Assembly (NCBI GenBank): GCA_964036045.1
Contig: OZ038388.1
Span: 32,937,672 to 33,001,671, forward strand
Direction of reading: 5' to 3'
DNA length: 64,000 nt
Source of the DNA: Eutreptiella sp. 'Long Island Sound 2002'
Lineage: Eukaryota; Euglenozoa; Euglenophyceae; Eutreptiales; Eutreptiaceae
The notes under the pieces were generated by a model. The model made no database searches and was not told the origin of the DNA. It saw only the letters and a list, made by a program, of their open reading frames with translations. Within the stretch, counting starts at the first letter, position 1. The number at the start of each line of letters is the position of its first letter. Shown one piece after another: positions 21,834 to 61,191 of this stretch. Made by a program: the position numbers and the translations under genes.

Positions 21834-21856
21834 GGTGTACTCTTAACGGAGTTACC
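21834..21856 (+). promoter_or_regulatory. 23-bp palindromic motif upstream of Rep ATG
   Basis: The motif is GGTGTACTC, then TTAAC, then GGAGTTACC; its arms pair imperfectly (ACTC with GAGT, GGT with ACC). It ends 14 nt before the Rep ATG at 21871. The same motif stands 12-14 nt before the ATG of three other gene types in these elements, which argues for a shared transcription or translation signal. Confidence 0.7.
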
Positions 21857-21870
21857 TTTTATTTCGCACC

Positions 21871-24800
21871 ATGTCAAATCGCTGGGAGCACGAGTTGCAA
21901 CAATGCTTGGACAGGGACATTGACTTCCCGGTGGCCGAGTTCATCAAGCTGCATAGCGAAGTCCCCCCGCGTACCATCCGTCGGCGACATGAGCAGTTGC
22001 GCGCCACGCTGATGAAGCGATTGGAAAAGCGCGCCGCACCTGGTATCCAAGCATCGACGGTGGCAAGTTTGAACACTCCTGAGTCCCAAGCAGCCAAGGG
22101 GTCTTGTGGAGGCAAGAGGAACACCGCGGAGTTCCAAGCCGACAAGGGCAAAAACAACACCGCGGAGTCGCAAGCGGCCAAGGGTTCGTCAGGAGGCAAG
22201 AAAAACACCTCGGAGTCCCAAGCCATCAAGGGCAAAAAGAACACCGCGGAGTCCCAAGCGGCAAAGGGTTCAGCTGGAGGCAAGAAGAACACCGTGGAGT
22301 CCCAAGCGGCCAAGGGGTCTTGTGGAGGCAAGAAGAACACCTCGGAGTCCCAATCGGACAAGGGTTCGTCAGAAGGCAAGAAAAACACCGCGGAGTCCCA
22401 AGCCATCAAGGGCAAAAAGAACACCGCGGAGTCCCAAGCGGCCAAGGGTTCCTTCGGAGGCATAAACAACACGCCAGAATCGCAACGGAATAAGGGCATC
22501 GTTGGTGGACACGGCAATACGCCAGAGAAGCAGCACATCAAGGCATCGGGGCGTCGTCATTGCGGGGTCGTTCGTACAGTGTCTCGGGAGTTGTTCAGTG
22601 TTAATGCATCATCGCCGTCCAACATTTCTTTGAAGTCAGTTCGAGAGTATTGGCTTGATGGTTTGGACACTTTGTACTCACCACTTTTTGATGCACTTTG
22701 CTATCGGTGTGGTCAACTCCTTTGGGGCCCAATAGGTGGGGGACACAAGTTTACGGTTCCACGCAATACTGACGAGATACGTACACAGACTTTATTTGGC
22801 GTGCCACCCACCGATTTGGTTACAAGTGGGATATTTGCATTCCGCAACGAGATGTTCGCCAATTACTTGAAGTACAAAAATGCACCGTTTCCAGTTCCCC
22901 CGCGATCTCCTGCACGTAGCACAAGTCGCTTTGTGGTGTATGACACTCCTTTTTGGCACTCCGCTACACGTATGTATGCTTGCCACGTTTGTAGCAAGTA
23001 TTCCGCGAAGTATGACCCCATCAACTATGGCTACACTTTGGATGGGGACATCCATTACAATATCCCCTCAAAAATTGCGGACCTCACCGAGTACCAGAAG
23101 CGACAAATTGCACTTGGGGCCCTCTACTCAAATACGCTGAAGCACGTGGATCTTCGTCACAAGCAATGGCACCATGCAATTGGTACCGTTGGTGTCGGCC
23201 GCAAGCCAAGCCAACACTACAATGCACTGTATGGTTTCATGACAATGAACGAGAATATTTTGCGCGATTACCAAAAGCCCAAGGACAGCGAGCAAAGCAA
23301 CCGTCAAATGAACCAAGCGTTGTTGCTGCTAAAAAAAATTCACCCTTTTTATTCTCGATTCTTGGCGCACTATGAGACGTTGTACCGATACTTGGAGAAT
23401 GCGGCCACCACCATGGGCACATTGACACAGCGTTCGTATGAAGACAAGTACGGGAAACGCTTGGAATACCATTTACAAGATGAGTACGTTGCTTGGGCTG
23501 TGGAGTGTGATGCCCCACGGAACATCGTTCCGGATTTTGCTCCTCACTCGGACAAAGTGGGCTTCCTCCATCGGACACCCTTCCGGGGAGCGGGTGGGAA
23601 CGTGACCACGGCCGCTCAATCGTTGGCCAATGACACTTATTGGCATTTTAACGACCCCAAGTTGCAACCGTGTGTATGGCCCGATTTGTATCCTGGCGGC
23701 GTTGGTGGATATACCGTAGGTTGCGGCATTGGATGTGCTGCCTACTACCGTAGTTGTTATCTTGCCTTTGATAGCCGATGGCGTCGGGACTGGTGGTGGT
23801 CCTTTTTCCAAGTGAGCAAAGAGATGAAAAACCAATTGATTTGGAATCAACAAAATTTCAATGCTCAACGTGCGGATCGGGCAGAGGACATTACTGCAGC
23901 ACATTTGAGAAGTGCGAGGAGTTCCACGGGTCCAAAACCGGCGCCAAAAAAATCTACCTCACAATCACCACAGTCGTCCTCGGAGTGTCCGCAAGGAAGT
24001 CAATGCACCCAGCCGAGTCAATCTTCACAATCCGCAACCCAAAGCACACAACACCCTCTATGTAGTTCCCAATATGCAGCAACGTCAACAACACCGCCAT
24101 CAACTCCGGCTACCAGTCAAGGCAAAAAGCCGCGTGCATGCTACCAAGACGGTGTAAATTCTATGAACCACAATCTCGAGCGCGAGGGGACTGATAAAGG
24201 TACGGCCGAGCTCAACCCGTATTATCGGTATGGAACTTATGTACCTTCAAAATTGGTTGGAACCCGTTCTTATTGGGCCTCGCGACATTTAGATCTTACA
24301 GCCATGAGTCGTGAACTTGGCAAAGCGGACCTTTTCATTACGTTGACCATGAATGACAACTGGGCCGATTTGCAAGCTGCTGTGCAAAAAGGGTGCCGTG
24401 CAGGAGCTGTGTGGCCTGGAGAATACCCCAGAAACACAGGGCCAAACAAGCCAATCCAAGATGGCCACGATATGGAGGCTTGTGTGGCGTTTCACAAGCG
24501 GGTGGAGATATTCAAGCGAGAGTTCTTGGCTATTGGCAAAAATGGTCCATTTGGAAAGGTGCGGGATTATTGGTTTCGATTTGAATATCAAGAGCGAGGC
24601 CGGGTGCATTTGCATGGCGTGGTATGGTGTGAAGCCAGCAGCATTCCGGACGATGTGGTTTGCGCAACAATGCCCCGTGAAAGTGACGGCTTTGATCCAA
24701 AGTTCACAGCATACCTACGGGATCTGTACAAGGAGTGCAACATGGTGCATCAATGCTACCCCGACAAGTGTTTCAATATTGGTCGTGGGCGTGTATGCAC

Positions 24801-27800
24801 CAAGTGCAAGTCAGGTTATCCCTTTAGTGTGCCGCAGGAGAGAGAAGAATTGGATGACAGTGGAGTCCGCTTGCTTTATCGCAGATATGAAGCCGAAGAT
24901 GCATGTGTTGTTCCACACAATCGCCGTTTGTTGGTTCGACTCCAGTGCCACAATAATGTGCAGCGGATAACATCTTTGGGTTGGGAATTATATCTCGCCA
25001 AATATCTCACAAAGCCAGCAAAGTCATTGACGGTGCCCATCACCATCTCGCCCGATGCAAGCGATGTGGAGCGTTTGCTCAAGTTGCGTTCATTGGGACG
25101 CATGGAGAACGGCATGATGCTCTTAGGAATCCATCAATGTCGAGGTAGCCGAGAGGTGGTATGGATTCCTACAGATCCATGGCCTAAACTAGGACGGCTC
25201 AAGCGTCGAAAGCATCTCCCAAAAGAAGATACGTCCACAGACGTTTGGTATTTGGATCGCTATGACCACTACTTGGAACGCCCCATTGCTGCCATACCCA
25301 TCAAGTACCCCGACTACTATCGCTATTATCGCCGAACACAATGTGAGCCCGGAGACTCCACAGCTATAGCAAGCAATCCAGCAGAGGACTTTGCATATGA
25401 TTCTCCTTCTAGCGATTCCGATGATGCAGTGAGCGGAGATCGTTTTCAAGCCAATGTACGCCCCGATGAGGGCAATAAACCATATTGGTGGCCATCACCA
25501 CCAGAAACGTTGGAGAAGACATTCAGGGACGAGGTGGGAAAAAAGTGGATTCTGCGAAGGCGAACTGCGATCCCAAGGTGGAACTTTTACCTCCCGTATG
25601 GAGAAGATGCCGAATGGTATTTCTTGCAAAAGATATTATTGTCACAGCCGTTCACAAAAGCAGACCACGAGCGGAAATTCCTTTCATCCAACAATGTCAC
25701 TATAACATACATGGAGGAGTGTATTCATCGAGGATTGCTTCGTGGTTATGAGGAAGAGGCACGAGAAACTTTAAACAATGCCCAAGCACGTGGCTATTCC
25801 GTTGAGCGTTTGCGACTTCTTGCACAAGTTCTTATTGCCGAAGAGATCATAGACTCCACCTTCCTCAATACCTACATGTCCGACTTAGATGAGCTTGAAA
25901 AGCACCGGTTTGGAGAAGATGAACCAGCAATGGCTGAGGAAGCTGAACTGGATCCCCAATTGGCGGAGGAGTTAAGGGCATTCATGGATGCTGACGACAC
26001 GCGTGCAGCAGAGGCACTTGTGAATGCTTTGAACGAAGGGCAACGCCGGGTATTTGACATTTTTATTGCACATTTTCAACGGCAGCCTCTTGAGAATGGT
26101 CCGGATATTTCCCTGCATTGCCGCACATCAAGTGGAAGTAGTGTTGCGCAATTGTGTGCTGTTCTCACAGGGGTTGCGGGAACCGGCAAGTCTTATGTCG
26201 TTCGCTTGCTGATTGCCAAGTTAAGAGCGCTTGGTTTCAGCATCCTAGTTTGTGGTTCTAGTGGGGTAGCCGCCCTAAATGTTGGAGGACGCACAATCCA
26301 CAGCCTGTTCTCATTATCTTTGGACTTTGAGTGGCAAATAAAGGAAGGCACAACCTTGTGGTGGATGATTCGAACTGCTGATATGATTATTGTCGATGAG
26401 TTCTCCCTCTTATCCAACAAGCTCCTTCACACGGTCCATGATGTGCTACACAAGGTACGCCGCGACAAGCGCAATCCTTTTGGTGGCATTACAGTGCTCC
26501 TCGTAGGTGATCCATTGCAACTACCCGCTGTTGATTTGGATATCTTTGACAGTGCACTCTTTCGAAACCATTTTGTTCCTTTTGTGCTGACGGACGTAAT
26601 GCGCCAAGACGATGCACATTTCATTAACTTGCTTAATCGTGTGCGGATTGGAGAGGAGAGTGACGAGGACCACTTAATTCTGCAGCAACGCATAGCGCTT
26701 AATTCCGATGTGTCACTACAAGACTTGGAGGATGCCCCCATGTTGGTTGGCCGTAGAAATGCTATGAACCGATGGAATGAACATTTCATGGCTCAATTGG
26801 GGTCAAGCATTGTTACGTTCGATGCTAGCTACGTTGATATGGGTGGTGCCCCTACCAATCAAGCAATGTGCGACTACATCAATTCTCGCAATCGTCGTGT
26901 GCTACCTAAGCAAGTGTCTGTCGCAACGGGCATGAGGGCACGGCTTATTCGCAATGTGTCCATCGAAAATCGACTCGTTAACTCGACACTTGTTGTGATC
27001 AAAAGATGGTCGAATGATGTCATTGTGGTAAGCCCGGTGGGGCACGCAAGGGAGTACCCCATCTGCCGTTTCCAGCAAATTATTCCGGTGTACGGCCCGT
27101 CCGTGCAAGTCAAAATAATCCAATTCCCTATGCTTCCCGGATACTCATGTACCGTGCACGGTACGCAGGGCTGCTCTTACGACCGCGTATGGGTGGACAT
27201 GGCAGCCTTCTTTGCCGCAGCACACGCATATGTTGCTTTATCACGCGCTCGTTCACTTCAAGGCCTATTCATCCTCAATTACCGTCGTGACGCTTTCCTT
27301 GTTGATCCGTATTACGTGCAATTATGGGATTGGTTCGTGGCCACAAACGTGTTGTCTCCCAAACCACCAAGCCAAATCCCTCCTTATCCACGAAGAACAT
27401 TTACAACATCACTCATAATTGGAATTATGTGTGTCCATCGTGCTTGGAGTGTCGTAAGTCAACTCCCACAGCGGTTGGATGCTCGGATATTGAAGGTCAA
27501 CATGCTCCACATTATCCAATATGTGTCATTTCCATACTGGTCGTATATTGAGAGACAATTGCGTGGAGACAAGCTGTCTTTGGACATTGATGATCTAAAC
27601 GAGGATGGAACGGAGCAAATCCGCAAACAAGGACGACCGGTTGGTACTACACGGCAACTTCCACAAGGCTTCGAACTATTGGACGCGTGTAATAACCCAC
27701 GAGTGTTTGCGGCCCAAGACTTGGCTCAAATGTTGGTTGTGCAATTGCGGACATTGTGTGCTGCACATAAGCTATCAACCTCTGGAACCAAAGCCCAGTT

Positions 27801-28320
27801 TCAAGAACGCATCCTACAAAAGCAAAACCACATTCAACCTCCATCACCTACACCATCGCCTACACATTCACATGGGCCTGTACGACTGGTGCCGTCATCC
27901 ATCGATGATTTCCCCCATTTGCAGCCACGACTTAATTACTTTGGAGAGGATTTTTGGCCACAAGAAAGAAGCGATACCACGGAGAACAATGTGCACATAT
28001 TGGAGAGTGCATGGTTGTCTTGCGCAGCAGTGCAATGCTTACTAGAGGTCTTGTTGCCACAGGGCAATTCCTCCGTTAAGCCGGTCGTCCAAGATGTGAC
28101 ATTGGCAGTAATAATGCAACATCCTCCGACGTTGCGGGTTGTGTATACTCCGGGAGATGCCCTACCCGTACTACTCACCTCGCAGCACTCCACTGTTGGA
28201 GTTCACTACGTGTTGGTCACGGACATTTCCATTGTAGACAAGACCTTGGTCGTCCACGATCCTAAAGATAACGCATCTACCTGTGGCGCATGGTTCCGGG
28301 CAATTATGAGTAAAATGTGA
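21871..28320 (+). CDS. Helitron Rep/PIF1-type helicase fusion with NUMOD3-like repeats, SAP and half of a C48-like protease
   Basis: A 2,149-codon ORF starts at ATG 21871, chosen for the conserved motif 14 nt upstream. Residues about 67-222 hold eleven NTxESQ/KG repeats resembling NUMOD3 DNA-binding motifs. Zinc-binding pairs lie at Cys277/Cys280 and Cys371/Cys374. The Helitron Rep HUH motif is His913-Leu-His915, and the candidate catalytic tyrosines are Tyr1041 and Tyr1045 (YLAKY). The helicase has Walker A GVAGTGKS (1434-1441) and Walker B VDE (Asp1509/Glu1510), as in PIF1. A SAP motif lies at about 1948-1983. The end carries HYVLV (His2112) and VVHDPK (Asp2130), the first half of a C48-like protease. 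Rep would nick and transfer single strands and the helicase would unwind. Copies 2 and 3 are broken; this one is open to an in-frame TGA. Confidence 0.92.
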   Translation: MSNRWEHELQQCLDRDIDFPVAEFIKLHSEVPPRTIRRRHEQLRATLMKRLEKRAAPGIQASTVASLNTPESQAAKGSCGGKRNTAEFQADKGKNNTAESQAAKGSSGGKKNTSESQAIKGKKNTAESQAAKGSAGGKKNTVESQAAKGSCGGKKNTSESQSDKGSSEGKKNTAESQAIKGKKNTAESQAAKGSFGGINNTPESQRNKGIVGGHGNTPEKQHIKASGRRHCGVVRTVSRELFSVNASSPSNISLKSVREYWLDGLDTLYSPLFDALCYRCGQLLWGPIGGGHKFTVPRNTDEIRTQTLFGVPPTDLVTSGIFAFRNEMFANYLKYKNAPFPVPPRSPARSTSRFVVYDTPFWHSATRMYACHVCSKYSAKYDPINYGYTLDGDIHYNIPSKIADLTEYQKRQIALGALYSNTLKHVDLRHKQWHHAIGTVGVGRKPSQHYNALYGFMTMNENILRDYQKPKDSEQSNRQMNQALLLLKKIHPFYSRFLAHYETLYRYLENAATTMGTLTQRSYEDKYGKRLEYHLQDEYVAWAVECDAPRNIVPDFAPHSDKVGFLHRTPFRGAGGNVTTAAQSLANDTYWHFNDPKLQPCVWPDLYPGGVGGYTVGCGIGCAAYYRSCYLAFDSRWRRDWWWSFFQVSKEMKNQLIWNQQNFNAQRADRAEDITAAHLRSARSSTGPKPAPKKSTSQSPQSSSECPQGSQCTQPSQSSQSATQSTQHPLCSSQYAATSTTPPSTPATSQGKKPRACYQDGVNSMNHNLEREGTDKGTAELNPYYRYGTYVPSKLVGTRSYWASRHLDLTAMSRELGKADLFITLTMNDNWADLQAAVQKGCRAGAVWPGEYPRNTGPNKPIQDGHDMEACVAFHKRVEIFKREFLAIGKNGPFGKVRDYWFRFEYQERGRVHLHGVVWCEASSIPDDVVCATMPRESDGFDPKFTAYLRDLYKECNMVHQCYPDKCFNIGRGRVCTKCKSGYPFSVPQEREELDDSGVRLLYRRYEAEDACVVPHNRRLLVRLQCHNNVQRITSLGWELYLAKYLTKPAKSLTVPITISPDASDVERLLKLRSLGRMENGMMLLGIHQCRGSREVVWIPTDPWPKLGRLKRRKHLPKEDTSTDVWYLDRYDHYLERPIAAIPIKYPDYYRYYRRTQCEPGDSTAIASNPAEDFAYDSPSSDSDDAVSGDRFQANVRPDEGNKPYWWPSPPETLEKTFRDEVGKKWILRRRTAIPRWNFYLPYGEDAEWYFLQKILLSQPFTKADHERKFLSSNNVTITYMEECIHRGLLRGYEEEARETLNNAQARGYSVERLRLLAQVLIAEEIIDSTFLNTYMSDLDELEKHRFGEDEPAMAEEAELDPQLAEELRAFMDADDTRAAEALVNALNEGQRRVFDIFIAHFQRQPLENGPDISLHCRTSSGSSVAQLCAVLTGVAGTGKSYVVRLLIAKLRALGFSILVCGSSGVAALNVGGRTIHSLFSLSLDFEWQIKEGTTLWWMIRTADMIIVDEFSLLSNKLLHTVHDVLHKVRRDKRNPFGGITVLLVGDPLQLPAVDLDIFDSALFRNHFVPFVLTDVMRQDDAHFINLLNRVRIGEESDEDHLILQQRIALNSDVSLQDLEDAPMLVGRRNAMNRWNEHFMAQLGSSIVTFDASYVDMGGAPTNQAMCDYINSRNRRVLPKQVSVATGMRARLIRNVSIENRLVNSTLVVIKRWSNDVIVVSPVGHAREYPICRFQQIIPVYGPSVQVKIIQFPMLPGYSCTVHGTQGCSYDRVWVDMAAFFAAAHAYVALSRARSLQGLFILNYRRDAFLVDPYYVQLWDWFVATNVLSPKPPSQIPPYPRRTFTTSLIIGIMCVHRAWSVVSQLPQRLDARILKVNMLHIIQYVSFPYWSYIERQLRGDKLSLDIDDLNEDGTEQIRKQGRPVGTTRQLPQGFELLDACNNPRVFAAQDLAQMLVVQLRTLCAAHKLSTSGTKAQFQERILQKQNHIQPPSPTPSPTHSHGPVRLVPSSIDDFPHLQPRLNYFGEDFWPQERSDTTENNVHILESAWLSCAAVQCLLEVLLPQGNSSVKPVVQDVTLAVIMQHPPTLRVVYTPGDALPVLLTSQHSTVGVHYVLVTDISIVDKTLVVHDPKDNASTCGAWFRAIMSKM

Positions 28321-29333
28321 TGGTCTTTTACACGGCATCATTATGGAACTCAACCTGATTCCGATACATGTGGCTTCCGTGTCGTCATGCTCGCCATGCA
28401 ATGGTGTCACACCAATCAACTCACCGGGCAACTCCCACGGTGGTTCTTGACGTATTGTGCAAGCGTTCTCCAGCTTTTTGCCGACGATACGAGCAGCTTG
28501 CGTTCTACGGTGAATACGTTTCAAGATTGGGCATATGAAGATGCCTTGAGAGAGTATGATGAACCAGTGGACTCGGCAATGACGGAGGGTGGGCCGCTTC
28601 CTACCGTCACCAGCAGCGACATGGAAGCTGCAATTCGCAACCCCCTATCCAATTCAGCGAGTGGTCCGTCTTCGACGTCCAAAGCGCCACAGCCTCCGCA
28701 TCCGTCAACCCGTAGGAAGAGTGGGACAGGTAAAGGGACTACGGGGGCAAACCCACAAACCACACCGGCACAGACCACTCCTACAAGAAAAATTCCAAAG
28801 TCAAAAAAGACAAATATGCCTCCACGTACCCGAACTTGCGAGCCACCACCCTACCAATCGCACCGTCAACCACATCCCAAGAGTGGACTCGAGGCCGACC
28901 AAAGGTCTTGCAAACATTCCTCAAAGAAGCGGTCATCCAACTCCGGGTCCGGGGCAAGGTCCAAGAAGAGTCGACCAGAGGACCACGAACAGTCAAATAC
29001 TAGACACATGAGATCCACTTCGAGCCGTCCTTCCAAATCAACAAGCCAAGAGCCGCCAACAGCAAAACAACGGCAAGAAAAGCTCCGGTAAATCATGCTA
29101 CACTATCCGAGAACGAGATCAAAAAGTGGTTAATCCTTATCAGGGACGAAAATTTAAGTCGACGAAAACGCCGCGAGCATGCTTTGCACTTCTTGGGAGC
29201 CGCAGATAGTACCTTGGTAACATTACAGTACCGCACTCTCAGTCTCCAACTGCATCCCGACAAAAACCCGTCGGACGCACTAGCAAAGCAACGATTCCAA
29301 GTTCTTGGGTGTGCAAGAGACATGTTCCGTTAG
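28321..29333 (+). pseudogene. Rep gene continuation after TGA: C48-like catalytic Cys, disordered linker, J-domain
   Basis: The same frame continues directly after the TGA at 28318-28320 and soon gives TQPDSDTCGF, supplying Gln2161 and Cys2167 of the C48-like protease whose His and Asp lie before the stop. A long Ser/Thr/Pro/Lys-rich linker follows. Copy 1 then loses an A in a short A-run near 29080, giving a premature TAA at 29089-29091. The shifted frame encodes a J-domain-like end (YRTLSLQLHPDKNP, HPD motif) that stops at TAG 29331-29333. In copy 2 (44287-45300) linker and J-domain are in one frame. J-domains recruit Hsp70; the use here is unknown. Confidence 0.75.
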
Positions 29334-29595
29334 CTAACCAGTTGCCATACATGAGGAATCGTCTTTACATTATTTCTTCCAAACTCGCTAATGCTCCTTG
29401 TATGGCGCCCACCAACACGGAAAACTTCTTTTGCATGTATTACACATTTATTTCATTCTTGCGTGCAATTGCGTGTCCTCTAAAATTGTAATTTTAATTA
29501 GCATTCAAGAGGTACGATTAACAGACCTGCAATCAATTCCGCCACATTGCAAATTTAACAAACCTACATACAATTAGTGCACGACGTAGGTTGCA
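29334..29595 (+). other. Spacer after Rep gene
   Basis: AT-rich spacer with no supported gene, conserved in inverted orientation at about 44028-44286 in copy 2. Confidence 0.5.
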
Positions 29596-30413
29596 CGTGT
29601 ACTCTTAGCGGAGTTACCTGCACTTATTAGTATACAACGCAGGATGCAGGTGTACTCTTAACGGAGTTACCTTCTCTTAGTTACAACAGAAGTACGAGTC
29701 AAGGTGTCCATTTCACGGAGTTCCCTTCATTTACAAGCAACAAGCGTACAAAGCACTCATCCACGTTGTGCGCGCACCTTCGATTGTTGCAAACGGTTTG
29801 TTAGAATCCTCTCACACAAAGGGTGATGCATCTTCTAAAACATACGGAAAACATTTTGGTAGCAAAGCGGGTGTACTCTTAACGGAGTTACCTTCAATTA
29901 TTTTCATCCATTTGCCAATCCATAAGAGCAGGGTACAATTAGTGCACGACATACAATGCAGGTGTAGTCTTAACGGAGTTACCTTCACTTATCATCAAAC
30001 GACGCAAGATGCAGGTGTACTCTTAACGGAGTTACCTTCTCTTATTTGCAAGAAAAGTACAAGTCAAGGTGTACTCCGCACGGAGTTACCTTCATTTACT
30101 TGCAACAACCGTCAAAGCAGTCATCCACGTTGTGCGCGCGCCTTCTATTGTTGCGAACGGTTTGTTACAATACCCTCAAACAAAGGGTGATCCATTTTCT
30201 AAAAAAAACGGTGAACATTTCGGTAGCAAAGTGGGTGTACTCTAAACGGCGTTACCTCTCCTTATTTTCGTCTATTTCCAACCATCTCATTTGCCAATCC
30301 ATACAAGCAGGGTACAATTAGTGCAAGACGTAGGATGCAGGTGTACTCTTAACGGAGTTACCTTCACTTATTAGTACACGACGTACAATGCACGTGTACT
30401 CTTAACGGAGCTA
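29596..30413 (+). promoter_or_regulatory. Second array of the 23-bp motif, about ten copies
   Basis: Exact or one-to-four-mismatch copies occur near 29596, 29649, 29702, 29870, 29961, 30014, 30069, 30235, 30336 and 30391, all in the same orientation. Spacers share words such as TACAATTAGTGCACGAC and longer duplicated blocks. No ORF here is convincing. The array lies between the Rep gene and the GRF gene. Confidence 0.75.
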
Positions 30414-30634
30414 CCTTCACTTAGCACTCGTTTCCATCACTTACGTTTATGTTTGACATTGCGTGCCTTGCATCATGAGTACTCCAGCAATACTCGGATG
30501 GAAGCCGCCCTAAAATTTTGTCCGTGGTGTTCAAATGACAAAAAGGGACAGGGTTGCCATTCATGCACCACTACTCCGAGGCTATGTTCTAGTACGACTA
30601 TCTAAATCTCACACATCGCCATCCCCTCTTTCTA

Positions 30635-30657
30635 GGTGTATTCTTAACGGAATTACC
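30635..30657 (+). promoter_or_regulatory. 23-bp motif upstream of the GRF gene
   Basis: A variant of the motif with two A/T substitutions (GGTGTATTC, TTAAC, GGAATTACC), ending 12 nt before the ATG at 30670. Confidence 0.65.
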
Positions 30658-30669
30658 TGCACTTCAATA

Positions 30670-31490
30670 ATGGACAATGCGCCCACCTGCCCTGTGTGCC
30701 AAGCCGAGCTCATCCCAAAGGTTAGCGGCTCAGCGACCCAAATTTTGACCGAGCTTTCCTGGCATGCCCAAATGACAAGCCGGACAACCGTCATCAAGGG
30801 GCTTTCAAGTGGACGGAGCCGCCAAAACATGTCCCACATGACTGGCCGTCATGTTTGTGCGGAGTACCGGCGCAAATCAAAAAATGGGGCACAACTTACT
30901 CATTCAATTGCTGGGATGAGTCCCCTTCGGGATGTAAGTTCTCACGCGGCGCAACCAGAGTTCCGGACCTCCAGCATCGTGATTGTGTTGCATGCGGTTG
31001 GGTGTACACGCCAGAAAGCACAACTGAATGTCTGCCCGTATCATCTCCATCAGCATCGACATCTCCCATGGATTCAACACCACCGCGCAAAATTCCACGG
31101 CCAAATCCCGCAACACCAACTCAAAGTTATATCCGCCCCCAAGACTTGAAACACAAGGCCGCCATACAAATTACAATGTACGAAACCGAGGATTCGTACA
31201 TCATACTCGCTCGACACGGAGTCACAGGTACGGCGGATGCCAATGCCGTTACATTGAACTTCGAGAGTCCGAGGGGTATACCCCCCAAAGCTATCGTCCG
31301 GGTGAACGAATTGCAATTGGCACATGAATTGCCAACACCGGGGACAACCAATGAGGGCACGGAGCCTCACACTTATCACCGCACCATTCAATTTCCAAGA
31401 GCAGTTCATCCCAAGCCGACTAAGGAAAGCAAAGCATCTTATATTGTACTTACGTTCAAGAAGGAAAGCGGCAAGCTTGTGTCCTTTTAA
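30670..31490 (+). pseudogene. GRF-type zinc-finger protein (frameshifted, copy 1)
   Basis: It starts MDNAPTCPVC at the ATG 12 nt after the motif. The frame breaks after SGSAT because of a one-base deletion relative to copy 2 and resumes in the frame that includes 30855-31490. Read across both copies, it has two GRF-like zinc fingers: CPVC with RAFLACPND and FKW, then CLCGVPA with FKCW and GCKF. A further CVACGW and a C-terminal domain ending KKESGKLVSF follow. GRF fingers bind single-stranded DNA in topoisomerase III, NEIL3 and APE2, so a role protecting or guiding single-strand intermediates of the Rep reaction is attractive but inferred. Intact length would be about 273 residues. Confidence 0.7.
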
Positions 31491-31967: not shown

Positions 31968-32002
31968 GGCGAAGCAGGGACTCGCTAGAGGGCTAGTAGC
32001 TT

Positions 32003-35773: not shown

Positions 35774-35786
35774 ATTTTGTAGTGAC

Positions 35787-36905: not shown

Positions 36906-36910
36906 TCATG

Positions 36911-51300: not shown

Positions 51301-51754
51301 GCTTGGGACTCCGCGGTGTTCTTTTTGCCCTTGATGGCTTGGGACTCCGCGGTGTTTTTCTTGCCCTTGTCGGCTTGGGACTCCGAGGTGTTCTTCTTGC
51401 CTCCAGCTGAACCCTTGGCCGCTTGGGACTCCGCGGTGTTCTTTTTGCCCTTGATGGCTTGGGACTCCGCGGTGTTTTTCTTGCCCTTGTCGGCTTGGGA
51501 CTCCGAGGTGTTCTTCTTGCCTCCACAAGACCCATTGGCCGCTTTCGACTCCGCGGTGTTGTTTTCTCCCTTGTCGGCTTGGGACTCCGCGGTGTTCCTC
51601 CTGCCTCCACAAGACCCCTTGGCTGCTTGGGACTCAGGAGTGTTCAAACCTGCCACCGTCGATGCTTGGATTTCAAGTGCGGCGCGCTTTTGCAATCGCT
51701 TCATCAGCGTGCCGCGCAACTGCGCATGTCGCCGACAGATGGTAGGCGGGGGGA
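45301..51754 (-). pseudogene. Helitron Rep/helicase gene, copy 2 main part (broken)
   Basis: Homologous to codons about 40-2149 of copy 1. Open parts are 50154-51754 (14 NTxESQ-type repeats), 49785-50150 and about 49676 down to 45304 (Rep HUH, PIF1-like helicase, SAP, first half of the C48-like protease). Lesions are TGA at 50151-50153 (TAC in copy 1), TAG at 49782-49784 (TTG in copy 1) and a one-base loss in the A-run near 49676. The first 30-odd codons lie across the DIRS insertion at 56729-56819, where the second codon is also TGA instead of TCA. The copy cannot make full-length protein without recoding. Confidence 0.85.
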
Positions 51755-52140
51755 CTCGGATTTACCCGAATAGGTGAGGAGGAAAGAAGAGATGGCGAAG
51801 CAATAGCACTACACAAGACACATATATGGGCCAACTCCTTAAAACCGGTTTGTTTTCTCTGTTTTCTGCTCTTTTGGTGCCCTTTGCTACCTTTCATTGA
51901 AACGGGCACCCTCAATATATACACAAAAATGGTATTATACATGAAAAATGAATTTTTGACCTCAAATACCCCCCATGGGGTTTGAACCCACACTCTACCA
52001 ACCTTAGAGTTGTGTTTTTCCTCTAAGCTACGACCTGTCGTCGACGATCTCAGAGAAAACCATAGTATAATAAAAAATTTGGAAAATCAGTACTCCTTAC
52101 ATGCTCCAACCACTATTAACCTCCCATGCTCTTAAAACCG
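51755..52140 (-). repeat. DIRS left inverted terminal repeat (element 3' side)
   Basis: From about 51800 to 52140 it is the inverse complement of 56388-56717, nearly identical. Its outermost ~50 bp are unique to this side and are matched, inverted, by the internal complementary region. Confidence 0.9.
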
Positions 52141-52210
52141 TGGCAACCGACGACCCAAGTGTCAACTGCTTTTCACGGTGAGCGAAGAACTTAAGGGAGG
52201 GACAGGGTGG

Positions 52211-52320
52211 GCATATATGTGTCTTGTGTAGTGCTATTGCTTCGCCATCTCTTCTTTCCTCCTCACCTATTCAGGTAAATCCGAGCTGGCTCAGCTAGCA
52301 CTACACAATCCCCATGTATG
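52211..52320. repeat. DIRS internal complementary region
   Basis: The first ~65 bp are the inverse complement of the left outer end (from about 51755), and the next ~45 bp that of the right outer end (to 56728), joined at about 52282. This is the template thought to join the ends into a circle in DIRS replication. Confidence 0.9.
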
Positions 52321-52372
52321 GGCAACAGAACGGAAGAACTGAGCTCCCGTGAACTGAACCCTTATATAAGAA

Positions 52373-53550
52373 TTAATTAATCGCCAGGCGCGAAGCGCGC
52401 GCCACTTCTCCAGTCGCCAGATCAGGAGGGACCAGAACTTGCGTGATGCGCAACAGAGCTCTGGTCCTGTCGTAAAACTTCCTGAATGTATCGTAACAGG
52501 ACCAATCACCCAATGCTGCCACCACATGCGGATCCACGCCAAGATAGATTAGTGCAGTTGCTGCTGCTCCTCGTGTAGAATGCGCGGAAAACGAATCCGT
52601 CTCCAGTTCCCCCAATTCCAGTAGGTGTTTCCTTAACCAGCGAGTAGTGAGACCGTTGATGGTATCAGACGATAAAGGCTTCCGTGGCTTTCGTAGGGAC
52701 ACAAAAATCACAGAACCCTCGTAATCACCAGTAGCCTCCAAATAACGCGCTAAGCAGCGCTGCGGATCAATTGACGGTGGCGTAACATTGTGAATAGGAT
52801 AACGTGCATAGTATCTCCTCCCTTTGCGCTTAGCAGAAATGAACCAAGGCTGAGCAGCGCGTTGGATATCCCTACGTGATCGCGCCAGATCAACGCCTCG
52901 GAACAAGGCAAAGAATCTCAAGGACAAAATGGCTTGCAAGCGCAGCTGAGCTTCCGTCTCCACAGGTTGCTGATGCATGACTTGTATAAGACGCCGTACA
53001 TCATAGAAACGATGATAATGAGGAACACTGACGAACCAGTCACGTTTCAAGTTGCGTAGCATACCCTCGAAACGTAGTTGCGAAAAGCACGGGAATAAAC
53101 ACACTGCTGAATACGCCATACGCCCAGCACTTAAAGAATGCGTGCGTGAAAACTTTAAAAGTTGCACCGCCACCGTCATCAGTGGGATTTGACCAAAGCG
53201 CTCCACCTTTAACAGTGGAGCAAGCGCCGCGTCTTGTAACAAGAACGTACCAAACATGTGCCACGCAGAATTGTAACGTTTCAAGGTGTCCTTCCCGATT
53301 TCATTGATGATAAGCGTCGCCTCTTCGTTGGTAGCTCCTCGCAATTGATAGTATTCACGCAAACATACGCCAAGGTCAACACGAAACGTGGTTGTGTCTC
53401 TGTGCCGTCTGGCATTTGCAACCGGAACTCCGACGTGTTCATTGCGAACTTCACGTGTTTCATCAATAGGTTCCACCAAACTTCGCGCGGCCTGTACGGC
53501 AGAGCCATGAGAACCTTCACCCCTGGTGACTCCAACACTTTGTTGACCAA
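52373..53550 (-). CDS. DIRS tyrosine recombinase (integrase)
   Basis: The frame is open from 54571 to TAA 52373-52375, but the upstream part only shadows the RT gene; the recognisable protein starts near 53400-53550. Numbered from 54571, the catalytic set is Arg558 (FFALFRGVDL), His664-Arg667 (HSTRGAAATAL), Trp in LGDWS, and Tyr700 (FRKFYDR), i.e. R-H-R-W-Y of the tyrosine recombinase family. It integrates the circular DNA intermediate. Its start overlaps the end of the RT ORF, so expression by frameshift, reinitiation or a separate transcript is likely. Confidence 0.92.
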
Positions 53551-55314
53551 CTGAGGTATGTGCTTGAACGGCGGGAAGACCCACCCCGGTGAAAGTAAAG
53601 TTAGATTCTGGGAGAAGACATCGATGGCGTAAGCCCCCGGCTGAGGACACGGACTGACGAACTTGCTGCACACCGCATTGGAACTCCTTGACATCCAATC
53701 GATTTCCGGCTGAATCCAACTTTTGAACTCCTCCAGGATCCAAGTCAACACGTCCGACGGGAAGGTAGCCTCCGACGGTGTCCAACGAAGCCGAGACCAA
53801 ATGTCCGCCGGATTCACCGAGGTGTGCACGTAAAACGGTTGAATCTCGATGCGATTGGCTTGTGTAAAATTCCACAGTTGGAGAATCAATGCGTTGAACC
53901 GCGGCTTGCGACCTCCCCACTTGCGGAGATACCAGTAAAGGACCATTGAGTCGGTGAAAAATCGCAGCGTGGTGTCCCTCAGCGCATACGCTTGAATCGT
54001 CAGTAGGGCTCCCCTGAACTCTTTGACGTTTATGTGTTCCTCTCGATTCAGGAACCAACCGAACGCTGCTTGGGCATTCCCTTGAAGGACTCCGCCCCAC
54101 GCCAGATCCGACGCGTCCGAGTACATGTCCCTGACGTGACCCATGGAAACTACGAAGGTGCGTCCCTTCCACTGGTGTAACTCGTCCGCCAGATCCATCA
54201 ACTGACGTGACACGCGCTCCGGGAGCGCCACGTCTGCCTCCCAGCCAGCCTGGACTGCCACCGCCACGTGCACCGCCAGGGCGTCGCTGAGGAGTCGGAT
54301 ATGGGGCATGGCGAACAGCAGGGAACGGATTCTTCCAAGAACGGAGGCGCATCGCCTCACTGATGGTGTGTGACTGTGTGCCAGTCTGTTCACGTCCCGA
54401 AAAATTGCTTGCAGGCGCTTTGGAGGTACCGCGACGAATCCTTCCCTGAAGTTCAGCATAAAACCAAGCATTATAATTTCTTGAGACGGCTCCAAACATG
54501 ATTTTGGGACATTGACCAATATACCCAACCGATGCAAAAGTTGTACCAAAAAACGTGTGTGTTCCAGACATTCACGGTAAGTATTGCCAATGATGAGCCA
54601 ATCGTCCAAGTAGACCCAAACGAGTGCTCCGCGTTCGCGCACGGCATTTAAAATTGGTTGCATGAGGCGTTGCCATTCCCGTGGTGCAACGTTTAATCCA
54701 AACGGCAACACGCACCACCTGTAAAATTCACCGTCGACGTAGACCCCCAAATAAGGTCGATCCCGCGGATGGATACCCATGTGAAAATAAGCACTTTTCA
54801 GGTCTATTTTGCAAGCATACTGACCGGGTCTCAAGAACGGTAAAATGCCCCACAGAGTGACCAAACGAAAATAGGTGGTCTGTACAAACTGGTTCACGTT
54901 CTTCAAATTGGTGATAGGTCGACGGCCTCCCTCAGGATGTGCCTCGTCTGACGCTTTGTCCACTGCGAACATACTTGCACAACACTTAATGTCTTTGCGC
55001 TCGACGCGTTCCATGCAACCCTGTTGCACTGCATCCAACACGTGTTTTACCAATTCAGGGTCGGTTACCTCTGCGTGGGAAGAACGAGGACGGAAGTCGT
55101 CGGTTGGCCGATCCGGATCAAAACCGTCAACCCAATCAAGCTGCAGCCCATTGCGAATCACTGACGCCGCGTATGTGTCCTTCAACGTTTCCCATTCATG
55201 CAATTGTGCACGACAGCGCAAATAGAGTGGCATGTGGGGATGGATCGGCGGTGGCACGCACACGGCTGGTGCCAATAAATCCTCTACAGTCAAGCTACTG
55301 CTGTGGTCGTTCAT
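53281..55314 (-). CDS. DIRS reverse transcriptase / RNase H
   Basis: A 677-residue ORF from ATG 55314, overlapping the gag-like ORF end by 20 nt. RT blocks include DLKSAYFHMGIHP (motif A), VLPFGLNVAPREW (motif B) and VYLDDWLI with Tyr235-Leu-Asp237-Asp238 (motif C). RNase H follows with MYSDASDLAWGG, HINVKEFRGALL and RFFTDSMV as the D-E-D series. The C-terminal ~130 residues are an extension after the RNase H. All are typical of the DIRS1/PAT clade. It copies the element RNA. Confidence 0.95.
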   Translation of the reverse strand: MNDHSSSLTVEDLLAPAVCVPPPIHPHMPLYLRCRAQLHEWETLKDTYAASVIRNGLQLDWVDGFDPDRPTDDFRPRSSHAEVTDPELVKHVLDAVQQGCMERVERKDIKCCASMFAVDKASDEAHPEGGRRPITNLKNVNQFVQTTYFRLVTLWGILPFLRPGQYACKIDLKSAYFHMGIHPRDRPYLGVYVDGEFYRWCVLPFGLNVAPREWQRLMQPILNAVRERGALVWVYLDDWLIIGNTYRECLEHTRFLVQLLHRLGILVNVPKSCLEPSQEIIMLGFMLNFREGFVAVPPKRLQAIFRDVNRLAHSHTPSVRRCASVLGRIRSLLFAMPHIRLLSDALAVHVAVAVQAGWEADVALPERVSRQLMDLADELHQWKGRTFVVSMGHVRDMYSDASDLAWGGVLQGNAQAAFGWFLNREEHINVKEFRGALLTIQAYALRDTTLRFFTDSMVLYWYLRKWGGRKPRFNALILQLWNFTQANRIEIQPFYVHTSVNPADIWSRLRWTPSEATFPSDVLTWILEEFKSWIQPEIDWMSRSSNAVCSKFVSPCPQPGAYAIDVFSQNLTLLSPGWVFPPFKHIPQLVNKVLESPGVKVLMALPYRPREVWWNLLMKHVKFAMNTSEFRLQMPDGTETQPRFVLTLAYVCVNTINCEELPTKRRRLSSMKSGRTP

Positions 55315-56281
55315 CTAACCTGTCGTTACGTGGCACAAATCTTTGGGTGAAACCCTTACCTTTGCCTTTGCCTCCTTTGCCAGATCTCCGTGGATCAAAA
55401 CGACCTCGTGTTGAAAACGAACGGAAAGAACTACGATGCGAGTAAGGGGAGAAACGCGTGCCTCTCAGGTCTTTTTGTAATTTGTTGCGCGACTGAAGTA
55501 GTGACATGTCATCCTTCGAGAGTAACTCTGGTGCAATCGCAGGTTGTTCAAACCGTTTATCTACTGCCACTCGCCGGGTGCTTTGGATGCTGTAGTCCAA
55601 CGCACCCAACATTGCAAACAAATGTTCACATAGTACCAATGAAACAGGTGCTTCCGGAGCTACCGTTGTGTCATCTTCGCGTGTTAAGACTACTCCCAGG
55701 ACTCGCATGGCGTCTTTTACCTGTTGTTCCCAACGACGCTTCTCTGCGTCCGCTGGATGTTTGTGCGTTGGCGCGTTATTAACAGCTGCCCTATGGAACT
55801 CGTCGAACACTGGAAGGTGCTTCAACATCTTTTTTCTGCGATACTCGTCTTGCAAAACCTTTCGCTCTTCCAGGAGTGCAGACAAGCGTGAAGGAAGCGA
55901 CAGAACCTCATCGCGCCACACGAACGTGGACTCCTTGTCCGACGCGGGGCCAGCGTGGTCCTTGGGACCGCTCAAAGTTTCGCATGCCAAGAAGACGTCT
56001 TCGCGATGCGACGACGTGCCTGTTCTGCCAATGTCGTCGCCCTTTAAGGTGAGTAAGGCATCACGAACCAAGGCCATCGTGTCTTTGACAGTGGCCAGTG
56101 TTTTCTTTCCTGTAAGTTTGGAATACAGTGACGCTGCCTGCCAAGGACTGAGACCACTCATTGCGCCTTCTTTTGCCAACTGTGCTGCATGTTCCAACGA
56201 CTCAGAACTCAGGTTCCACGCCGAATCCGGCAACTTCAGCACGAACTCGTGAAAATCCAGTGTCTCATTTTCTTCTGTCAT
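55295..56281 (-). CDS. DIRS gag-like protein
   Basis: A 328-residue ORF from ATG 56281 (MTEENETLDF) to TAG. The N-terminal half is helical and acidic; the C-terminus is basic and Gly/Arg/Lys-rich (RGRFDPRRSGKGGKGKGKG), suiting RNA binding. The position as first gene before RT supports a gag-like role. No zinc knuckle is seen. Confidence 0.75.
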   Translation of the reverse strand: MTEENETLDFHEFVLKLPDSAWNLSSESLEHAAQLAKEGAMSGLSPWQAASLYSKLTGKKTLATVKDTMALVRDALLTLKGDDIGRTGTSSHREDVFLACETLSGPKDHAGPASDKESTFVWRDEVLSLPSRLSALLEERKVLQDEYRRKKMLKHLPVFDEFHRAAVNNAPTHKHPADAEKRRWEQQVKDAMRVLGVVLTREDDTTVAPEAPVSLVLCEHLFAMLGALDYSIQSTRRVAVDKRFEQPAIAPELLSKDDMSLLQSRNKLQKDLRGTRFSPYSHRSSFRSFSTRGRFDPRRSGKGGKGKGKGFTQRFVPRNDRLDERPQQ

Positions 56282-56387
56282 TTTGTTACAATGTATATCC
56301 TTAAAACATTTTGGATTGCATCAGAAATCAAAGCTCTGGGTACAGCAAATCACTAGTTGAACAACTCAGTGAGCGCGTGACCGGTTT

Positions 56388-56728
56388 TAAGAGCATGGGA
56401 GGTTAATAGTGGTTGGAGCATGTAAGGAGTACTGATTTTCCAAATTTTTTATTATACTATGGTTTTCTCTGAGATCGTCGACGACAGGTCGTAGCTTAGA
56501 GGAAAAACACAACTCTAAGGTTGGTAGAGTGTGGGTTCAAACCCCATGGGGGGTATTTGAGGTCAAAAATTCATTTTTCATGTATAATACCATTTTTGTG
56601 TATATATTGAGGGTGCCCGTTTCAATGAAAGGTAGCAAAGGGCACCAAAAGAGCAGAAAACAGAGAAAACAAACCGGTTTTAAGGAGTTGGCCCATATAT
56701 GGGGATTGTGTAGTGCTAGCTGAGCCAG
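56388..56728 (-). repeat. DIRS right inverted terminal repeat (element 5' side)
   Basis: Partner of the left ITR. On the plus strand it contains an A-box-like TAGCTTAGAGG (56492-56502) and a B-box-like GGTTCAAACCC (56534-56544), 31 nt apart, the layout of an internal RNA polymerase III promoter. A possible T-arm is GTGGG, TTCAAAC, CCCAT, but no acceptor stem can be formed, so it is not called as a tRNA gene. Confidence 0.85.
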
Positions 56729-56819
56729 CTTTGCTATGCAGCTTGATGAACTCGGCCACCGGGAAGTCAATGTCCGTGTCCAAGCATTGTTGCAACTCGT
56801 GCTCCCAGCGATTTCACAT
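56729..56819 (-). pseudogene. Rep gene copy 2, first codons, separated by the DIRS element
   Basis: The minus strand from 56819 encodes the Rep N-terminus (WEHELQQCLD, then FPVAEFIKLHS) and ends at the DIRS junction. The initiator ATG is followed at once by TGA, whereas copies 1 and 3 have TCA. The motif at 56834-56856 is 14 nt upstream. Confidence 0.85.
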
Positions 56820-56833
56820 GGTGCGAAATAAAA

Positions 56834-57820
56834 GGTAACTCCGTTAAGAGTAGACCTATACTCCAAATCCGACTGCTGAGAGCAAGAAAAAACATTAGTT
56901 GGGAAAAAACAAAGTGACTACTTTGGGGATAGAAGCATCATTGATAATGTTGGTGACGCCTATACTTGTACAGCCTCAAACCCAACCGGATGGCAGTATC
57001 TTGTTTTGCGTTGGTGGGCCTTACTTATCCTCCCAAAGAATGAGCCCCATTCCTACCCACTAGTACCCCAGCCCAAACGGAACCTCACCTTTTGGTACCC
57101 GTGGAACAACAAAGCACACAAACGGCGAAACACAGCAGGGAACTACTCGTCCCTCTTGTACCAAACACTCCAGCCTATTGTTGCAACTCTTGCTCCCATG
57201 ATTAGACATGACGTGAATGTGAAGGTAACTCCGTTAAGAGTACACCTGTACTCCAAGTCCAAACACTAAGAGCAACGGGCAGAGAAGAACAAAGCACTCA
57301 AACGGCAAAACACGGCAAAGAACTACTCGTCCCTCTTGTACCAACTCTTGCTCCCATGATTAGACATGGCGTGAATGTGAAGGTAACTCCGTTAAGAGTA
57401 CACCTGTACTCCAAGTCCAATCACTAAGAGCAAAAGGCACAAAAGAACAAAGCACACCAACGGCAAAACACGACAAGGAACTACTCGTCCCTCTTATACT
57501 TGGCGTGAATGTGAAGGTAACTCCGTTAAGAGTACACCTGTACTCCAAGTCCACTCACTAAGAGCAAAGGACACAAACGGCAAAACACGGCAAAGAACTA
57601 CTCGTCCCTCTTGTACCAACTCTTGCTCCCATGATTAGACATGGCGTGAATGTGAAGGTAACTCCGTTAAGAGTACACCTGTACTCCAAGTCCAATCACT
57701 AAGAGCAAAAGGCACGAAAGAACAAAGCACACAAACGGCAAAACACGACAAGGAACTACTCGTCCCTCTTATACTTGGCGTGAATGTGAAGGTAACTCCG
57801 TTAAGAGTACACCTGTACTC
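56834..57820 (-). promoter_or_regulatory. Leader-repeat array, copy 2
   Basis: Minus-strand motif copies at 56834-56856 (one mismatch), 57223-57245, 57382-57404, 57516-57538, 57657-57679 and 57791-57813. Units of 134-160 bp match those upstream of Rep in copies 1 and 3; there is one more unit here than in copy 1. Confidence 0.75.
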
Positions 57821-57890
57821 CAAGTCCAATCACTAAGAGCAAAGGGCACAATGAACGAAGCACACAAACGGCAAAACACAGCAAGGATGA

Positions 57891-59077
57891 CTCATCCCTC
57901 GGTACCAAAAGGGACACAAAATTTCACTTGTTTTTGTCCCATAGTGGCCCATTTTCAAGGCATTTTCAGATTCTCTATGGGCCACAACGCCCGATCTTGA
58001 GCTCAAAACAGGCTAAAAACACTTTTTTGAGCCTCCCAAATGGCCCATGATCACTTTCAGAAAATTGCGTTTGTCACCCAGTTTTGACCCATTTTTGGTG
58101 TTGAACCAGCCTCTTTTCAAGGCATTTTGGGATTTTCCGTGGGCCAAAACGCGGCACCACGGGCTCAAAATGGGTCCAAACCACTTGTTTGAGCATCCTG
58201 AATGGTCCAGGATCACTTTTGGGAAAACGCGTTTTTCACCCATTTTTGACCCATTTTTGGTCCCAAAACGGCCCATTTTCAAGGCATTTTGGGATTTTCC
58301 GTGGCCCATAACGCATCACCACGGGCTCAAAACGGCCTAAAAACACTTCTGTGAACATCACAAGTGGTCTAGGAACAACTTTGGAAAAAATGATTTTTTT
58401 CGCCCCGGGGACCCTGGTGGACCCACCGTTGGCCCCCACCGTGCGCGGGCCGGGCTGCCCTCCGGCTCCACCAAGTGACCACTGGTACGGGGGTCTAGGT
58501 GGCTCGTTGGGCGATTCTGAGGGTTGGAAACCACCAAAAGTGGGGGGTTGCGGGTGGACTAGGTGCCCTCGGAATTCGGATTTGAGCCACGGAACCCAAG
58601 ATACGCCCTGTGCTTGGTTGCGGGGTGGTGGTGCGCGTTGCGCAGGTTTTTGGGGCTTTTTGGCGCCTTTTTGGGCTATTTCTCGGACATATCGTGGAAT
58701 TGAAGGGCACTAGAGAGCTCCCTGACACGCCGAAGTCAAGCCGCACGTGCAGTGTACTCACCGTATCCCTTCGTTAAGGCGTTTCGCCCAGGTTTTGGGG
58801 CTGTTTTGGGCGGAAAATGGCTGTTTTTGGCCCAAAACTGCGCCGATCTGGGAGGGCACCTCCCGACTTGGCGCCCCCGCCCTGGGCCGCCACCGGTGAG
58901 TTTTTGGCTCAAAACTCGGATTTGGCAGGGCCACCACCTGGGCTCCAAGATGGCTAGCGTAGAGTAGAGCCCGGAGCGATGAGGCGGAGCAATGGCCGAA
59001 ACGGTGAGGAGAAGTGCTTGTTGCTTGTTGTTGCTTGTTGTTGCTTGTTAGCTAGATTTAAGGGGAGAGGGGTGTAG
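57891..59077 (-). repeat. Giant element 5' module, copy 2
   Basis: Inverted homologue of 5875-7062 with all tandem units present, ending outside with GGAGAGGGGTGTAG (59064-59077) and a short TAA repeat. Confidence 0.85.
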
Positions 59078-59090
59078 TAATAATAATAAT

Positions 59091-60289: not shown

Positions 60290-60860
60290 GATTGGACTTG
60301 GAGTACAGGTGTACTCTTAACGGAGTTACCTTCAGACTCACGCCATGTCTATTCATGGGAGCAGGACTTGCAAAAATAGTGTGGAGTGTTTGGTACAAGA
60401 GGGACGAGTAGTTCCTTGTCTTTTTTTGCCGTTTGTGTGCGTTATTCTTCCGTGTCCTTTGCTCTTAGTGAGTGGACTTGGAGTACAGGTGTACTCTTAA
60501 CGGAGTTACCTTCACATTCACGCCAAGTATAAGAGGGAAGAGTAGTTCCTTGTCGTTTTTTACCGTCTGTGTGCTTCGTTCTTTCGTGCCTTTTGCTCTT
60601 GGTGATTGGACTTGGAGTACAGGTGTACTCTTAACGGAGTTACCTTCACATTCACGCCATGTCTAATCATGGGAGCAAGAGTTGGTACCAGAGGGACGAG
60701 TAGTTCTTTGCCGTGTTTTGCCGTTTGTGTGCTTTGTTCTTCTCTGCCCGTTGCTCTTAGTGTTTCGACTTGGAGTACAGGTGTACTCTTAACGGAGTTA
60801 CCTTCACATTCACGCCATGTCTAATCAAGACGCAAGAGTTGCAACAATAGGCTGGAGTGT
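60290..60860 (+). promoter_or_regulatory. Leader-repeat array, copy 3
   Basis: Exact motif copies at 60308-60330, 60488-60510, 60622-60644 and 60780-60802, most followed after 14 nt by ATG (the second has AAG instead). Same layout as 20940-21520. Confidence 0.75.
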
Positions 60861-61168
60861 TTGGTACAAGAGGGACGAGTAGTTCCCTGCTGTGTCCTGC
60901 CATTTGTGTGCTTTGTTGTTCCACGGGTACCAAAAGGTGAGGTTCCGTTTGGGCTGGGGTACTAGTGGGTAGGAATGGGGCTCATTCTTTGGGAGGATAA
61001 GTAAGGCCCACCAACGCAAAACAAGATACTGCCATCCGGTTGGGTTTGAGGCTGTACAAGTATAGGCGTCACCAACATTATCAATGATGCTTCTACCCCC
61101 CAAGTAGTCACTTTGTTTTTTCCCAACTAATGTTTTTTCTTGCTCTCAGCAGTCGGATTTGGAGTATA

Positions 61169-61191
61169 GGTGTACTCTTAACGGAGTTACC
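61169..61191 (+). promoter_or_regulatory. 23-bp motif upstream of Rep, copy 3
   Basis: An exact copy, 14 nt before the ATG at 61206. Confidence 0.7.

Follow-up and report, generated by a model that had tools for sequence, protein, structure and literature searches.

A start-proximal 23-bp motif as a possible expression signal in a Helitron2-like element family of Eutreptiella

In the genome of Eutreptiella sp. 'Long Island Sound 2002', a stretch of 64,000 nucleotides (contig OZ038388.1, positions 32,937,672 to 33,001,671), hereafter called the window, contains three related elements, E1, E2, and E3, and the genes of these elements are preceded by copies of one 23-bp imperfect palindrome, GGTGTACTCTTAACGGAGTTACC. 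The genes in question code for a Rep-helicase, a GRF zinc-ribbon protein, a UPF1/DNA2-like helicase of superfamily 1 (SF1), and an F-box/LRR-like protein (Table 1). The original prediction for this DNA placed the motif, with up to three substitutions, 12-14 nucleotides (nt) before the ATG at seven named sites. All seven were found, and none arose by chance in 100 shuffles. The motif lies 14 nt before the ATG of each of the three Rep genes (copies at 21834(+), 56856(-), and 61169(+), with 0, 1, and 0 mismatches, respectively), 12 nt before that of both GRF genes (30635(+) and 42976(-); 2 and 3 mismatches), 14 nt before that of the UPF1-like gene (40445(-); 0 mismatches), and 13 nt before that of the F-box/LRR-like gene (35809(-); 2 mismatches).

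While these seven sites were described correctly, the description was incomplete, in that extensive upstream arrays of the same motif had been overlooked. The window contains 42 copies at three or fewer mismatches, as against 0 in 100 shuffles, and 46 at seven or fewer; a stray match with 7 mismatches lies at 36610. The seven ATG-proximal copies are thus a minority of the 42, and most of the others form arrays upstream of the genes, in the same orientation. These arrays are built up in tandem from units of ~53 and ~370 bp. Units of the Rep arrays duplicate the leader, mostly including the start codon, whereas those of the GRF arrays have no ATG at 12-14 nt. The GRF gene together with its motif array is also tandemly repeated at two other loci, L038 and L039 (G000 C1, 46.548-46.558 Mb), where four GRF starts recur with a period of ~2,385 bp.

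At two or fewer mismatches, the 2.28-Gb host genome contains 3,192 copies of the motif (1735 + 1457), and a reversed-pattern control gave 0. The copies that were examined in context, a part of the 3,192, lie within this element family, as judged by ends, genes, or arrays. The motif is followed by an ATG at 9-16 nt in 1,151 genomic places (621 + 530; control, 0), and among 100 of these that were listed, the spacing was 14 nt in 84, 13 nt in 6, 12 nt in 8, and 9 nt in 2, with 0 at 10, 11, 15, or 16 nt. This count is anchored on the motif, and many of the places are copies of the Rep arrays that are related by descent and not independent. Whether the motif is equally common away from open reading frames (ORFs) was a question attached to the original prediction, and the answer is divided: the copies examined belong to this element family, but most of them stand in upstream arrays and not beside an ATG.

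GRF, the only gene counted in this way, allowed a test anchored on the gene itself. Its first 22 bases matched 90 places in the genome at two or fewer mismatches, and in 87 of them positions 10-23 of the motif, its 3' part, were located exactly 12 nt upstream. The GRF starts were compared by hand, with three or fewer mismatches allowed over this part and the start together, and the strand totals agree. Two of the three misses (L054 and L055) resemble breakpoints at which the leader was severed, and the third (L056) is a decayed leader. Among 17 further places, picked mainly for mismatches or divergence, 16 possess the full 23-mer at 12 nt, with no more than one mismatch to the GRF form; the remaining place (L073) is a chance match. 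When gene starts were located by protein similarity, the motif was present in 24 of 24 (Rep, 10; GRF, 8; UPF1, 3; F-box, 3), at 14, 12, 14, and 13 nt, respectively, in a set whose loci were partly selected for the motif and which excludes matches that began beyond residue 8 or lay too close to the end of a locus. In one of these UPF1 starts the ATG has been lost, but the motif is present. Moreover, over the window and loci L031-L050 (264 kb, 62 kb of which were masked as coding by similarity to the proteins of the element), none of 196 copies at three or fewer mismatches overlapped masked coding sequence, and 156 of 157 copies pointed at the next gene (same strand, gene within 3 kb downstream), the other 39 having no gene in reach.

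Conservation also falls off at the edges of the motif. A set of 233 instances with six or fewer mismatches was drawn from the window and loci L001-L050, excluding any within 45 nt of the end of a locus. Over the 214 instances with four or fewer mismatches, positions inside the motif are 87-100% conserved and those outside 29-84%, except for the TTC that directly follows (90-94%) and one T at +30 (0.91). In a comparison of E2 with a diverged copy, L036, the 15 motif places were 84.6% identical, their flanks (+-60 nt) 77.4%, other noncoding sequence 85.5%, and coding sequence 88.8%. Two of the 15 places (30% and 43%) coincide with a deletion that was misaligned, and the other 13 are 83-100% identical, with a mean of ~92%. 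On the whole, this pair provides only mild evidence of constraint on the motif.

The leaders themselves carry traces of common descent. The original prediction took the genes to be without sequence similarity, a claim that fails at the leader: the GRF and F-box/LRR-like leaders are alike from the motif to the first codons, and both genes begin with ATGGACAAT. Their alignment downstream of the motif was better than that in all 1000 shuffles, and the 40 nt upstream of the motif do not align. At L051, a diverged GRF copy, the leader is F-box-like and the gap is 13 nt. Similarly, the copy at 34411, close to the right end of E2, aligns downstream with the Rep leader and start, and the array of UPF1 can be aligned to that of GRF at ~69-80%. 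No alignment at P 0.05 was obtained downstream of the motif for the other eight leader pairs. Because these leaders (GRF with F-box, Rep with the right end) and these arrays are related, the fixed spacing and the orientation seem to be partly inherited, the spacing probably in part through the duplication of leader cassettes. The F-box/LRR-like gene appears to have gained its motif by copying of a GRF-type leader, the direction of copying being our inference. Right ends matching the 34411(-) copy were found at L031, L037, L039, L041, L045, and L049, with sequence resembling the Rep leader and start, as though a copy of the 5' end had at some time been placed there.

Judged by its sequence, the carrier is a Helitron2-like element inserted in (AT)n. 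It is bounded by a 14-bp asymmetric terminal inverted repeat (ATIR), which was counted at 16 left and 21 right ends from the window and loci L031-L073. The left end reads TTA-CTACACCCCTCTCC, and the right end reads GGAGAGGGGTGTAG-ATTAGAGG. At the left, ~3 nt separate CTACACCCCTCTCC from the end of the element, and at the right, 8 nt separate its complement from the end, an asymmetry of the Helitron2 kind. Helitron2 elements insert without target-site duplication; since the present insertions are mostly in (AT)n, any such duplications would be masked. An ORF of 2149 amino acids (aa) matched Helitron_like_N (E 8.8e-25) and PIF1 (E 3.4e-27), and thus has, at the domain level, the RepHel composition of Helitron2 (an HUH-type Rep with a PIF1 helicase); the C-terminal part of the Rep protein is DnaJ-like. 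A Rep-PIF1 protein, asymmetric terminal inverted repeats, and short relatives sharing the terminal repeat are features of Helitron2/Helentron elements in the consulted parts of PMC3627910 and PMC5148889. Unlike those elements, the present one has three extra genes with a common leader and is inserted in (AT)n. Its 3' ATIR is 8 nt from the end, compared with ~20-30 nt in Helitron2 (PMC3627910, in part). Terminal hairpins, a feature of Helitron2, were not seen when one left and one right end were folded with RNA parameters: the left ATIR had no hairpin, and there was none downstream of the 3' ATIR.

Both ends were identified for eight elements, namely five of 1.0-1.4 kb, one 3.0-kb form, E1, and E2. 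The last three contain 11, 16, and 24 copies of the motif, respectively. None of the five short elements, which have the same terminal repeat and are too short for the genes of the element, contains the motif at six or fewer mismatches. Because these five short relatives do without it, the motif is probably dispensable in cis for mobility, although most of them differ from E2 in their subterminal sequence and may belong to sister families; one shares the type of the motif-bearing L040 and L050 elements. At L050 (1395-6630), four short non-autonomous elements that share this terminal repeat follow one another, almost head to tail, within (AT)n.

Several genes in the window are broken. Both GRF copies contain a frameshift or a stop, and in E2 a stop follows directly after the Rep ATG; therefore, the window alone is no proof of active genes. 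Open GRF and F-box frames do occur in copies elsewhere in the genome. E1 is apparently internally deleted, missing the UPF1-like and F-box genes. In-frame Rep stops are common to E1 (28318) and E2 (45301), where Rep, judged by eye, looks like a C48-type protease. A recoding event at this site was rejected, as the stop is present in E1 and E2 but absent in four of the six copies that span the place. The closest solved relative of the UPF1-like protein by sequence is the DNA2 helicase (E ~1e-6). Between E2 and L036, identities at its first, second, and third codon positions are 0.906, 0.909, and 0.840, and for this reason the protein has probably been under selection in the past. A comparison of the GRF protein with the PDB gave a single match that is not credible (E 0.47). 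The Rep gene of E2 is interrupted by a DIRS-like retroelement with overlapping minus-strand ORFs for a reverse transcriptase (53281-55314) and a tyrosine recombinase (52373-54571). With bounds set by eye, a GC-rich LINE-like retrotransposon (Exo_endo_phos, RVT_1) occupies 7060-19250, behind a copy of a Helitron left end at 5873-7055, and a 5'-truncated tail copy of it occupies 32188-34020, adjoining (AT)n. Scans for tRNAs and for Rfam families found nothing in the window (Rfam, 0 matches at the gathering score).

Table 1. Coordinates of the elements, genes, and motif copies in the window
Feature	Position	Strand	Remarks
Element E1	19867..32073	+	Rep and GRF only; 14-bp asymmetric terminal inverted repeat at ends, in (AT)n
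Element E2	34106..59080	-	Rep, GRF, UPF1-like, and F-box/LRR-like genes
Element E3	from ~59090, beyond window end	+	Rep with motif array
Rep-helicase gene of E1	21871..29091	+	Helitron_like_N, PIF1 helicase, SAP; in-frame stop at 28318, frame continues
GRF zinc-ribbon gene of E1	30670..31490	+	Frameshifted; open copy at L038
GRF gene of E2	42120..42941	-	Contains a stop
F-box/LRR-like gene of E2	34532..35773	-	414 aa; weak LRR_6 match alone, F-box label unconfirmed
UPF1/DNA2-like SF1 helicase gene of E2	37391..40408	-	1005 aa
Motif array before Rep of E1	20973..21856	+	Five copies: 20973, 21153, 21287, 21445, 21834; Rep ATG at 21871
Motif array before GRF of E1	29596..30657	+	Ten copies at three or fewer mismatches and one at 5; last, 30635
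Single motif copy near E2 right end	34389..34411	-	Followed by sequence resembling Rep leader and start
F-box/LRR-like motifs of E2	35787..35911	-	Proximal copy 35809; partial duplicate 35911 at 4 mismatches
Motif array before UPF1-like gene of E2	40423..41053	-	Four copies: 41053, 40905, 40778, 40445
Motif array before GRF of E2	42954..44024	-	Ten copies at three or fewer mismatches and one at 4; last, 42976
Motif array before Rep of E2	56834..57813	-	Six copies: 57813, 57679, 57538, 57404, 57246, 56856
Motif array before Rep of E3	60308..61191	+	Five copies; last ends 14 nt before ATG 61206

The reading that we prefer, and to which we give nearly an even chance, is that the motif serves as a cis-acting expression signal of this Helitron2-like family, with same-orientation arrays, cassette leaders, and a common trans factor. 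One copy 12-14 nt before each start codon would constitute a core promoter or a start-proximal recognition site, and the further copies, tandemly multiplied, would form upstream arrays that raise occupancy by one sequence-specific trans factor. This putative factor, whose gene may belong to the element or to the host, would turn on, or hold open, every gene of the element; the GRF protein is one candidate for a motif-binding protein. The signal would move as a leader cassette composed of the motif, the spacer, the ATG, and the first codons, and the F-box/LRR-like gene may have taken its start from a GRF-type leader in this manner. The common expression signal of the original prediction is supported because the spacing is retained at GRF starts, conservation falls at the motif edges, coding sequence is avoided, and gene orientation is followed, but part of the spacing on which that claim was built probably stems from the duplicated cassettes. 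Since array copies reach 1.1 kb upstream without start codons, a role at the DNA level is favored, and we lean towards action as DNA over action as an RNA hairpin. Several points weigh against the preferred reading. The arms of the palindrome are offset by one base (a bulge at position 5), and the G.T pair 4-20 is nearly invariant, features that suit a bulged RNA or single-stranded DNA hairpin better than a DNA dyad. In the E2-L036 pair, the motif is no more conserved than other noncoding sequence, though it is above its flanks. Independent placements of the motif are few, since shared descent accounts for part of the spacing and the orientation, and the GRF and LRR profile matches are weak.

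If the motif is transcribed, it could act as a bulged-U RNA hairpin in the 5' leader, read by a protein and controlling the translation, export, or stability of all mRNAs of the element, a reading that we consider somewhat unlikely. All four leaders form, in context, the hairpin GGUG-U-ACUC / loop UUAACG / GAGU-UACC, and the sense strand folds at -7.3 kcal/mol versus -4.1 kcal/mol for the complement. T5 is invariant in all 214 instances, and G4 in 213 of them; pairing survives in variants with C7-G18 changed to U-A or U8-A17 to C-G. For the inner-stem pairs, which were singled out after an earlier covariation pass, pairing-preserving double changes numbered 6, versus 1.75 in column shuffles (67 unique variants; 5/2000 shuffles reach 6, P 0.0025); over all nine pairs the corresponding P was 0.036, and the mean folding energy of the variants was slightly below that of the shuffles (P 0.035). 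However, the copies are related, which inflates the covariation signal, and the double changes seem to go back to about two events that many copies have inherited. Paired cells over the nine pairs amount to 529/603 against a shuffle mean of 525.7 (P 0.107), and only 41 of 115 deviating cells remain paired. Among 93 GRF leaders listed (one chance match dropped), 12 are altered in positions 10-23, with 8 in positions 10-14 and 4 in positions 15-23; such clustering is compatible with the loop of a hairpin and equally with a DNA spacer. Far-upstream array copies, moreover, would require a very long, hairpin-studded 5' untranslated region (UTR). A related reading, which we hold to be unlikely, is that a portable leader cassette (bulged hairpin, spacer, start, and first codons) was copied before captured genes, bringing new cargo into a single self-regulated, operon-like regulon under one element-encoded factor that would recognise the hairpin as RNA or DNA.

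The sequence just before the motif raises the question of splicing, in cis or with a spliced leader, in which the first G of the motif would follow a 3' splice acceptor and the motif would aid acceptor choice or start the mature 5' UTRs. YA precedes the motif in the four window gene leaders, making YAG at its first base, and a pyrimidine-rich stretch ending in CTAG is present in the GRF and F-box leaders, with CTAG in 15 of 16 further GRF-type leaders. The tracts are weaker in the Rep and UPF1 leaders, however, and AG is absent at some array copies, so that we regard this reading as improbable. The leader and array relationships described above (GRF/F-box, Rep/right end, UPF1/GRF), the tandem nature of the arrays, and the E2-L036 identities could alternatively mean that the motif has no present function, the leader having been duplicated with its ATG and the arrays spread by unequal exchange and homogenisation within the element. 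This we find more improbable still, given that the motif is uniform across 214 instances while its flanks drop to 29-84%, and that it is retained at 87 of 90 GRF starts. Finally, the present motif, which is strand-constant, hairpin-capable, multiplied, and found once near the right end of an element whose Rep has a Helitron_like_N domain, might serve Rep as a binding site or hairpin in rolling-circle replication or transposition, in the manner of iterons or the bulged hairpins of IS200/IS605. The five motif-free short elements, with the reservation that most may be sister families, and the location of the copies beside start codons and not at termini make such a site the least probable of these readings.

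How the present family relates to described systems depends on which feature is compared. Large DNA viruses have promoter motifs at a near-constant distance before the start codons of unrelated genes, and in these respects resemble the arrangement seen here. The viral comparison made in the original prediction was not borne out: IMG/VR contained 0 exact motif matches, no UPF1 or Rep match, and 2 GRF pattern matches unconfirmed by tblastn, in a search sensitive to close relatives only, and Pfam scans revealed no virus hallmark, the virus-named matches being to general helicase models such as Viral_helicase1. A large DNA virus regulon is therefore not supported, neither close viral relatives in IMG/VR nor hallmark genes in Pfam having been confirmed. 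In En/Spm (CACTA), TnpA-binding repeats are subterminal, occur in both orientations, and are bound by an element protein. A short motif repeated inside a transposon is common to both, but the motif here is start-codon proximal and in a single orientation.

VANDAL21 of Arabidopsis, a Mutator-like element that with VANC21 forms an anti-silencing system, offers the closest described behavior. The consulted parts of PMC5735166 describe same-orientation motif arrays in its noncoding regions, bound by its own VANC21 protein, and these arrays grow as tandem repeats (PMC5735166 and PMC10398659, in part). The original assertion that no equivalent had been described was therefore too strong. As in VANDAL21, the present family has many copies of one short motif, in one orientation, in noncoding sequence including that upstream of genes, multiplied in tandem and enriched in the family. 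On the other hand, the VANDAL21 motif is the 9-bp YAGTATTAY, without a fixed distance to the start codon as far as these partly consulted sources describe, versus 23 bp at a fixed distance here, and it is bound by VANC21, whereas the binder of the present element is putative. Membership among the VANDAL elements was rejected, since the carrier encodes a Helitron Rep-helicase; by analogy, the present element may work like a VANDAL without being a member. No Helitron with a start-proximal motif regulon was found among the titles and abstract starts listed in literature searches of partial coverage, and none is named in the consulted parts of PMC6431247 and PMC4683698.

Helitrons capture gene pieces, as part of PMC6431247 describes. 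An expression signal of the kind proposed here would extend self-regulating motif arrays from VANDAL elements to rolling-circle transposons. To our knowledge, the route by which cargo captured by Helitrons comes to be expressed is little explained. Unrelated genes that share one start-proximal signal, together with an apparent leader takeover, may thus provide a concrete, testable route from capture to expression.

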